This document shows positions 32,650 to 34,113 of a stretch of 64,000 bases of DNA, in pieces; positions within the stretch are counted from its first letter, which is position 1, and each line of letters begins with the position of its first letter. Under the pieces are notes generated by a model, which saw nothing but the letters and a program-made list of their open reading frames with translations, did not search any database and was not told the DNA's origin. This DNA is from Frankineae bacterium MT45. GTDB lineage: Bacteria > Actinomycetota > Actinomycetes > Mycobacteriales > Jatrophihabitantaceae. Location: the NCBI GenBank assembly GCA_900100325.1, contig LT629697.1:2911423-2975422 (forward strand). The letters are read 5' to 3'. The position numbers and the translations under genes were made by a program.

Positions 32650-32738
32650 CTACAGCCCGCGCGGGATCACCGCCCGAGCCAACGATGAACTCTACCCGAT
32701 CGATCGCCGGATCGAAAAATCAGACACGCTGATCATTC

Positions 32739-33479
32739 TCAGGATGGCCGTCGGCTCCACCGTCCCATCGCGGGTACTCCGTAGGAACCATCCGCGTTCT
32801 GCGGGTAGTACACGTAACGCAGTTGCGCGTAGGTCAGGGTCGTCGTCTCCAGGATCGACGCGGTGCCGACGCCGAATTCGTGGAAGCCGCAGACCATCGC
32901 CGCACTGAGCTCGATGCGCAGGAAATCCACGTCGCACGCACCCGGAGTGGCTCGTGAGACGGTGACGACCACCCGATCGAAGACCTCACCCGTGATCATC
33001 GCGCCGAAGAGCACCGGCGACGCCGCGCTCGGGGCGGCGACGAGGACGAATTCGCCGCTGCCGTGCGGCACTGTGATCGGAGTGGCGAGGGCCATCGACG
33101 GTGCGATCAACCCCTCACCCCAGGAGTACTGGTGCAGGTCCAAGTCGATGCTCTCCAGGCCTGCGGGCTCACCCCCGTTTGAGCTACCGGCGCCCGACCG
33201 GCGTCCCAGGCCCAGTTCGCACCGCAGTTGCGCATCGAGGGCCAACCCGGGGCGTGGCGTCGACGGCGCGAGATCTTCGGCGGCGTCGATTCCGAGCGCC
33301 TCGATCAGGGCCCGCATGCCGATCATGTTCGAACCCAGGGGCTCCACCGCACAGTGCTGCACGGCGATTGCGGGGGGCGGCTGCGCAGCCTTGCCGTGAC
33401 CTCCGCCGCGCCCTCCGCCGTCACCCGAACCGCCCGTCGAATTGCCCGAACTGCTGCCCGCATTCGTGACGACCGACAT
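32739..33479 (-). CDS. Hcp-like (type VI tube protein family) protein with Gly-rich N-terminus
   Basis: A 246-aa protein. Residues about 10-30 are Gly/Ser-rich and 40-105 are unassigned. The last ~140 residues follow the Hcp pattern: IDLDLHQYSWGEG aligns with the IDVLSWSWG strand, GEVFDRVVVTVSRA and FLRIELSAAMVCGF with the middle strands, and TTTLTYAQLRYVYYPQNADG with the characteristic family ending. Hcp forms the hexameric ring of type VI secretion tubes. No other T6SS or contractile-tail gene is here, so it is either an orphan ring-forming protein or a distant look-alike. GGGAGGA precedes the ATG by 6 nt. It lies beside the tRNA pair. Confidence 0.55.
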   Translation of the reverse strand: MSVVTNAGSSSGNSTGGSGDGGGRGGGHGKAAQPPPAIAVQHCAVEPLGSNMIGMRALIEALGIDAAEDLAPSTPRPGLALDAQLRCELGLGRRSGAGSSNGGEPAGLESIDLDLHQYSWGEGLIAPSMALATPITVPHGSGEFVLVAAPSAASPVLFGAMITGEVFDRVVVTVSRATPGACDVDFLRIELSAAMVCGFHEFGVGTASILETTTLTYAQLRYVYYPQNADGSYGVPAMGRWSRRPS

Positions 33480-33513
33480 CAAATCCTCCCGACTAGCACG
33501 GCCCCGTAATGCA

Positions 33514-33524
33514 CTATGACATAG
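33514..33524. promoter_or_regulatory. Palindrome upstream of the Hcp-like gene
   Basis: CTATGACATAG is a perfect 5-1-5 palindrome 35 bp before the ATG of the Hcp-like gene, within an AT-richer 200-bp gap that holds no gene. It may be an operator; nothing else in the window shares it. Confidence 0.3.
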
Positions 33525-33681: not shown

Positions 33682-34113
33682 TCAGTGTTTGGGGCCGTAG
33701 ACCATCAAGAAGACGATCGCCGCATAGATAAGCCCGATGATCCCGCCGCTGGCCGCGACCTGACCCCGCAAGGCTGCCGCGGTCTCACCGGCCTGCAACT
33801 GGGTCGCGGCCTTCTCGAGCGCCGGCACCAGCAGGAAGAGTGCGATCGCCGTCGCGACCACCCAGAGCAGGATCGAGGCGATCACCCAGCCGTCGCTGAA
33901 CTTGATGTGCCACTTGTCCTGGACGAGCCCGAATCCCAGCGCCACGACGAGGATCGACGCATAGCCGTAGATACGCACCGTTCTCGCGCTGGCCGCCACC
34001 GCACCGCCGTCCCCGGCCCGCACACCGCGAACTGCGGTGGTGCTGGCCCCGACGAGCGGCCCGACCGCGAAGATGGCCGTCAGGATATGCAGGGCAAGGA
34101 TGAACTTCAGCAT
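33682..34113 (-). CDS. DUF2269-like small membrane protein
   Basis: A 143-aa protein with four hydrophobic segments (about 4-22, 48-64, 72-95 and 118-138). Features such as LHILTAIFAVGPLVG and the His/Asp pattern resemble the DUF2269 family of predicted integral membrane proteins, whose function is unknown. TAGGGT lies 6 nt before the ATG, pointing to a leaderless transcript. It is downstream of gltX in the same direction but has its own promoter. Confidence 0.65.
   Translation of the reverse strand: MLKFILALHILTAIFAVGPLVGASTTAVRGVRAGDGGAVAASARTVRIYGYASILVVALGFGLVQDKWHIKFSDGWVIASILLWVVATAIALFLLVPALEKAATQLQAGETAAALRGQVAASGGIIGLIYAAIVFLMVYGPKH

Follow-up and report, generated by a model that had tools for sequence, protein, structure and literature searches.

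Discussion of Hcp (TssD) is, to our knowledge, normally confined to its role as the tube of type VI secretion. Hcp also acts as a chaperone for small effectors, and evolved or extended Hcp proteins carry an extra region, a toxin fusion, beside the Hcp domain. Plasmid-borne orphan hcp/vgrG islands are described in one report on other bacteria (PMC13098142), and a genome survey found monoderm genomes to lack diderm-like secretion loci (PMC4793230).

Here we describe an hcp-like gene in the window, which is the whole stretch of 64,000 nucleotides that was analysed from the chromosome of Frankineae bacterium MT45. The protein belongs to the Hcp family, and its genome lacks the sheath, the type VI component that was searched for. 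It shares with Hcp/TssD (PF05638; PA0085 Hcp1, PDB 1y12) the fold, the domain length, the SWG and C-terminal PQ-ADG-type motifs and a profile match above the cut-off. It differs from Hcp/TssD in its 80-residue N-terminal tail, in the replacement of the GAGK loop, in a score below the NCBIfam cut-off and in the missing sheath. The Tat- or Sec-exported orphan Hcp proteins of actinomycetes (for example L018, L025, L005 and L017) are likewise PF05638 members from genomes without TssC. Such proteins have signal peptides, and some others collagen-like repeats, whereas the protein described here has neither. Compared with the evolved Hcp proteins, the extension here is N-terminal and of low complexity.

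The hcp-like gene and its surroundings

The gene reported by the sequence-only reading, which left the strand unstated, is real, and the open reading frame places it on the minus strand (Table 1). In the frame read, the plus strand of these positions is interrupted by stop codons. The tRNA pair said to adjoin the gene proved to be tRNA-Glu and tRNA-Gln, and these two were the only RNA elements found around it. The strong ribosome-binding site and the upstream palindrome of the same reading are both present.

Table 1 Features of the hcp-like locus, with positions in the window
Feature	Position	Strand	Remarks
hcp-like gene (P0001)	33479-32739	minus	ORF, 246 codons (246 aa) + stop
Ribosome-binding site GGGAGG	33490-33485	minus	5 nt 5' of ATG; identical in same-genus orthologue
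Palindrome CTATGTCATAG within CTATGTCATAGT	33524-33514 within 33513..33524	minus	CTATGTCATAG identical in same-genus orthologue
Residues 1-19 (MSVVTNAGSSSGNSTGGSG)	33423..33479	minus	identical in orthologue despite five synonymous codon differences
Short amphipathic helix, residues 49-66 (GSNMIGMRALIEALGIDA)	33282..33335	minus	conserved; model (low confidence) and hydrophobic moment
Hcp domain, residues 82-246	32742..33236	minus	beta barrel, one helix (153-163); profile, PDB match and model
Equivalent of the Hcp extended loop, residues 121-142 (GEGLIAPSMALATPITVPHGSG)	33054..33119	minus	near-normal length; alignment and model
tRNA-Gln	32649-32577	minus	same strand as hcp-like gene, downstream
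tRNA-Glu	32537-32464	minus	same strand as hcp-like gene, downstream of tRNA-Gln
Terminator-like stem	32458-32423		follows tRNA-Glu
DUF2269 integral membrane protein gene	33682..34113	minus	143 aa; upstream of hcp-like gene

The gene is flanked by gltX, the DUF2269 gene, the tRNAs and metabolic genes, the closest of which are housekeeping or unrelated genes, and its GC content is within the range of its surroundings. No functional partner was recognised among these neighbours, the DUF2269 gene included, and the neighbours scanned contained no recognisable mobile-element gene. The gene content is GC-rich and resembles that of mycobacteria, in line with an actinomycete; an Rv2993c-like domain recorded in the same scan is one example. 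The stretch of about 90 bp between the hcp-like gene and tRNA-Gln (32650-32738) is almost identical in the orthologous genome and is probably the promoter region of the tRNAs.

The upstream stretch GTGGCCTATGTCATAGTGCA is identical in the hcp-like gene and its orthologue. CTATGTCATAGT contains TGTCATAGT (33521-33513), a candidate extended -10 promoter; a scan with the strict sigma-70 consensus reported no promoter at CTATGTCATAGT. The second and only other genomic copy of the 11-mer CTATGTCATAG lies in L166 near 1501-1511 (G000:C1:2488838-2488848), and the two copies share the core GCCTATGTCATAG. The L166 copy is intergenic and precedes a polymerase-like gene, which we take to resemble a LigD-type polymerase, and a divergently read gene for a small membrane protein. 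The two loci may possibly share a type of promoter. The conserved upstream block, the strong ribosome-binding site and the purifying selection described below suggest that the gene is, as had been claimed, probably actively expressed.

The only other genome examined from the genus has a fully syntenic orthologue with 70% identity, while the other 22 genomes of the family gave no match by protein or by profile. In most family genomes in which gltX is visible on the locus, gltX lies ~60-250 bp before the tRNA-Gln/tRNA-Glu pair. In this genus the DUF2269 and hcp genes fill that gap, an arrangement that suggests a gain within the genus, the alternative being loss elsewhere. Other members of the family have a DUF2269 homologue with no detectable gltX beside it. 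One family genome (L155) has ~930 bp between gltX and tRNA-Gln, a gap that may have taken up another gene.

The complete, single-contig genome of 4.23 Mb contains one PF05638 gene. Profile searches of this genome found neither the TssC sheath (PF05943; the E. coli control was positive) nor a contractile sheath of the phage type (PF04984). For these three markers, the earlier statement that type VI and contractile-tail genes are otherwise absent holds.

Hcp domain, N-terminal tail and selection

The protein matches Pfam T6SS_HCP (PF05638) with E = 1.7e-7 and 32 bits against a curated cut-off of 23.5, and the orthologue reaches 34.9 bits. The NCBIfam model TIGR03344 (TssD) gives 14.7 bits, below its cut-off of 58.9; the protein is therefore a divergent relative and not an orthodox tube protein. 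The best sequence match in the PDB by phmmer is Hcp1 of P. aeruginosa (PA0085; E = 6e-5).

The AlphaFold model was built on an alignment of 29 Hcp relatives, the orthologue not among them. It is ordered from about residue 141 and confident over residues 141-240, where the blocks have pLDDT 82-93 with the last block lower, whereas its N-terminal part and extended loop are modelled poorly. The Foldseek matches shown against the PDB are all Hcp proteins or Hcp fusions, some of them fusion tags, with E down to 2e-10. Their TM-scores, normalised to the target, are mostly 0.6-0.77 with a maximum of 0.77. The rmsd to Hcp structures is large, which we attribute to the loose loop and ends. The protein is a genuine member of the Hcp family. 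The Hcp likeness first noticed in the letters of the sequence is borne out by the Pfam score, the PA0085 match and Foldseek values of about 1e-10, and the motifs named at that time (YSWG and TYAQLRYVYYPQNADG) are present. The sequence-only reading had made its proposal depend on an Hcp profile match and on a predicted Hcp beta barrel with its extended loop: the profile matches, and the barrel is modelled with ordered strands and the helix, the loop being predicted at low confidence.

Alignment with complete Hcp proteins puts the start of the first Hcp strand, LDAQLRCELGL, near residue 82, and strand 1 of the model spans residues 83-90. The N-terminal addition, previously given as 100 residues, is actually ~80 residues long, and the Hcp domain that follows from about residue 82 is of normal length. 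The loop GEGLIAPSMALATPITVPHGSG no longer has the Gly-rich GAGK signature that is typical of the family. The N-terminal helix is modelled at residues 50-61 with low confidence. The extension contains no Pfam domain, and neither a toxin nor an immunity partner was recognised. Near matches to the DNA of the tail elsewhere in the genome gave no convincing case of its reuse. In residues 1-80, and also with a longer start, the hydropathy scan found no hydrophobic segment of the kind seen in Sec or Tat signal peptides, the highest 15-residue hydropathy in residues 1-80 being 1.2.

Comparison with the orthologue gave dN/dS 0.27 and dS 0.77 for the whole gene; neighbouring genes have dN/dS 0.025-0.126 at similar dS. 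The first 20 residues differ by five synonymous changes and one non-synonymous change (dN/dS 0.057). As these changes are mostly synonymous, it is therefore the protein, and not the DNA, that is conserved there. Residues 21-105 form a linker with dN/dS 0.44, fast-changing except for SN(M/L)IGMRAL(I/A)EALGIDA, and the Hcp part (residues 106-246) has dN/dS 0.15. These ratios point to purifying selection that acts most strongly on residues 1-19 and on the Hcp domain and leaves the linker to drift. The conservation of the tail is a single comparison because the full architecture is known from two sequences.

A possible role outside type VI secretion

Our preferred explanation, to which we give an even chance, is that the protein is a divergent, genus-specific and cytosolic Hcp-fold protein that works outside type VI secretion, likely as a hexameric ring with a docking tail. 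The Hcp domain would self-assemble into the ring as other Hcp proteins do, and the modelled fold makes the formation of a ring or tube plausible. The tail of ~80 residues, in which a variable spacer separates an invariant 19-residue Ser/Gly/Thr segment from the short conserved amphipathic helix, would project from the ring and dock it to a partner or cargo. The ring may then shelter or scaffold this partner or cargo, comparable to the chaperone role of Hcp. It is more doubtful, although conceivable, that the cytosolic ring and its conserved docking tail represent a small non-secretion assembly or chaperone that arose by exaptation in a bacterium that has no LPS outer membrane.

The protein could have lost the ability to form rings, because the loop responsible for ring and tube contacts is without its usual Gly-rich sequence and is predicted at low confidence. 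The protein would then keep the Hcp fold as a monomer or bound to a partner, for example as a regulator or stress protein. The inter-subunit contact loop has a different sequence (LIAPSMALATPITVP) that is nonetheless kept within the genus, and the protein as a whole has diverged strongly; both observations are consistent with such a protein. The core strands and the approximate loop length are nevertheless retained, and divergence alone does not predict ring loss, so that we consider a protein without a ring unlikely. An equally improbable proposal is that the protein descends from a Tat-exported orphan actinomycete Hcp, its signal peptide having decayed into the N-terminal helix. The nearest relatives outside the genus are indeed Hcp proteins of the Tat type (L018, 4e-12; L025, 4e-9; L005, 7e-9). 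The helix LGSNMIGMRALIEALGID aligns with LKTGAVGMGALLGAMGMG, the hydrophobic region of the Tat signal, with shuffle p values of 0.002-0.2 for most pairs. This likeness is weak, was chosen after looking and has p = 0.68 for one pair; both segments are rich in Ala, Gly and Leu, and the twin arginine is absent from the hcp-like protein. The tree gives the genus pair no firm place: the two sequences form a separate branch with 2.79 changes per column. The Tat ancestry of the helix is suggestive only. Since it concerns origin, former export can be compatible with the cytosolic ring preferred here. The protein may also leave the cell by a non-classical route, since export seems to be the fate of most Hcp proteins related to it in the class.

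The sequence-only reading had raised the possibility of a domesticated phage tail protein. Phage tail tubes and Hcp share the overall fold, and weak structural matches to viral tube proteins were obtained. These matches have E = 3e-5 or worse, against 1e-10 for bacterial Hcp, and TM-scores are better for Hcp. A tblastn search gave no match in 50,697 phage records and no plasmid relative, the genome has no phage sheath, and no phage gene is among the annotated neighbours. The PHROGs profiles offered only a marginal, unnamed match (E = 0.001). A phage descent of the protein is scarcely credible on this evidence. Cytoplasmic contractile injection systems are described in Streptomyces (PMC12237407) and are thus present in the phylum, which could make the protein the cargo or tube of an unrecognised system elsewhere in the genome. 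The complete chromosome, however, contains neither PF04984 nor PF05943. The tube of the Streptomyces injection system is of the phage-tube family, unlike PF05638, and we regard membership in such a system as very unlikely.

Orphan Hcp proteins of Actinomycetes

Outside the genus, PF05638 was found in 9 of 198 other genomes sampled in the order and in 14 of 394 sampled in the class. None of the 25 Hcp-bearing actinomycete genomes from order and class, MT45 itself included, contains TssC. The suggestion of a system not described for actinobacteria was therefore overstated, as about 4-5% of the sampled actinomycete genomes contain Hcp but no TssC. The open-access literature that was searched yielded no description of such actinomycete Hcp proteins, and GTDB genome contigs yielded no named relative of the full-length protein. 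The hcp-like protein is real and is one of a scattered, little-studied set in the class, and it is not evidence of a new machine.

Unlike the protein described here, most of the others appear to be exported: a crude hydropathy rule together with visible twin-arginine motifs assigns an export signal to about 19 of the 25 Hcp proteins from outside the genus. Among 97 proteins scanned around other actinomycete hcp genes, no conserved neighbour was evident. Apart from the Hcp, collagen-repeat and methyltransferase families, each family matched at most a few of these proteins, and the 25 commonest families included no sheath or other type VI family.

The conserved and probably expressed Hcp of a genome without a sheath, one case of a thin but repeated actinomycete pattern, makes a role of the Hcp ring outside type VI secretion directly testable. 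It is also a warning for annotation, as a gene labelled "type VI secretion tube protein" in one of these genomes should not be taken to imply type VI secretion. If the cytosolic ring is real, it would show, together with the exported orphan proteins, repeated reuse of the Hcp ring among Actinomycetes.

Collagen-like repeats were recorded in six proteins of the neighbourhood scan and are visible inside several Hcp ORFs. Eight proteins from the order and class (L010, L008, L015, L020, L026, L028, L029 and L031), all from genomes without TssC, combine a Sec-like signal, a short conserved cysteine-containing module, collagen-like repeats and a C-terminal Hcp domain. From their sequences they are apparently secreted collagen-Hcp proteins, and L010 bears two Hcp domains in tandem.
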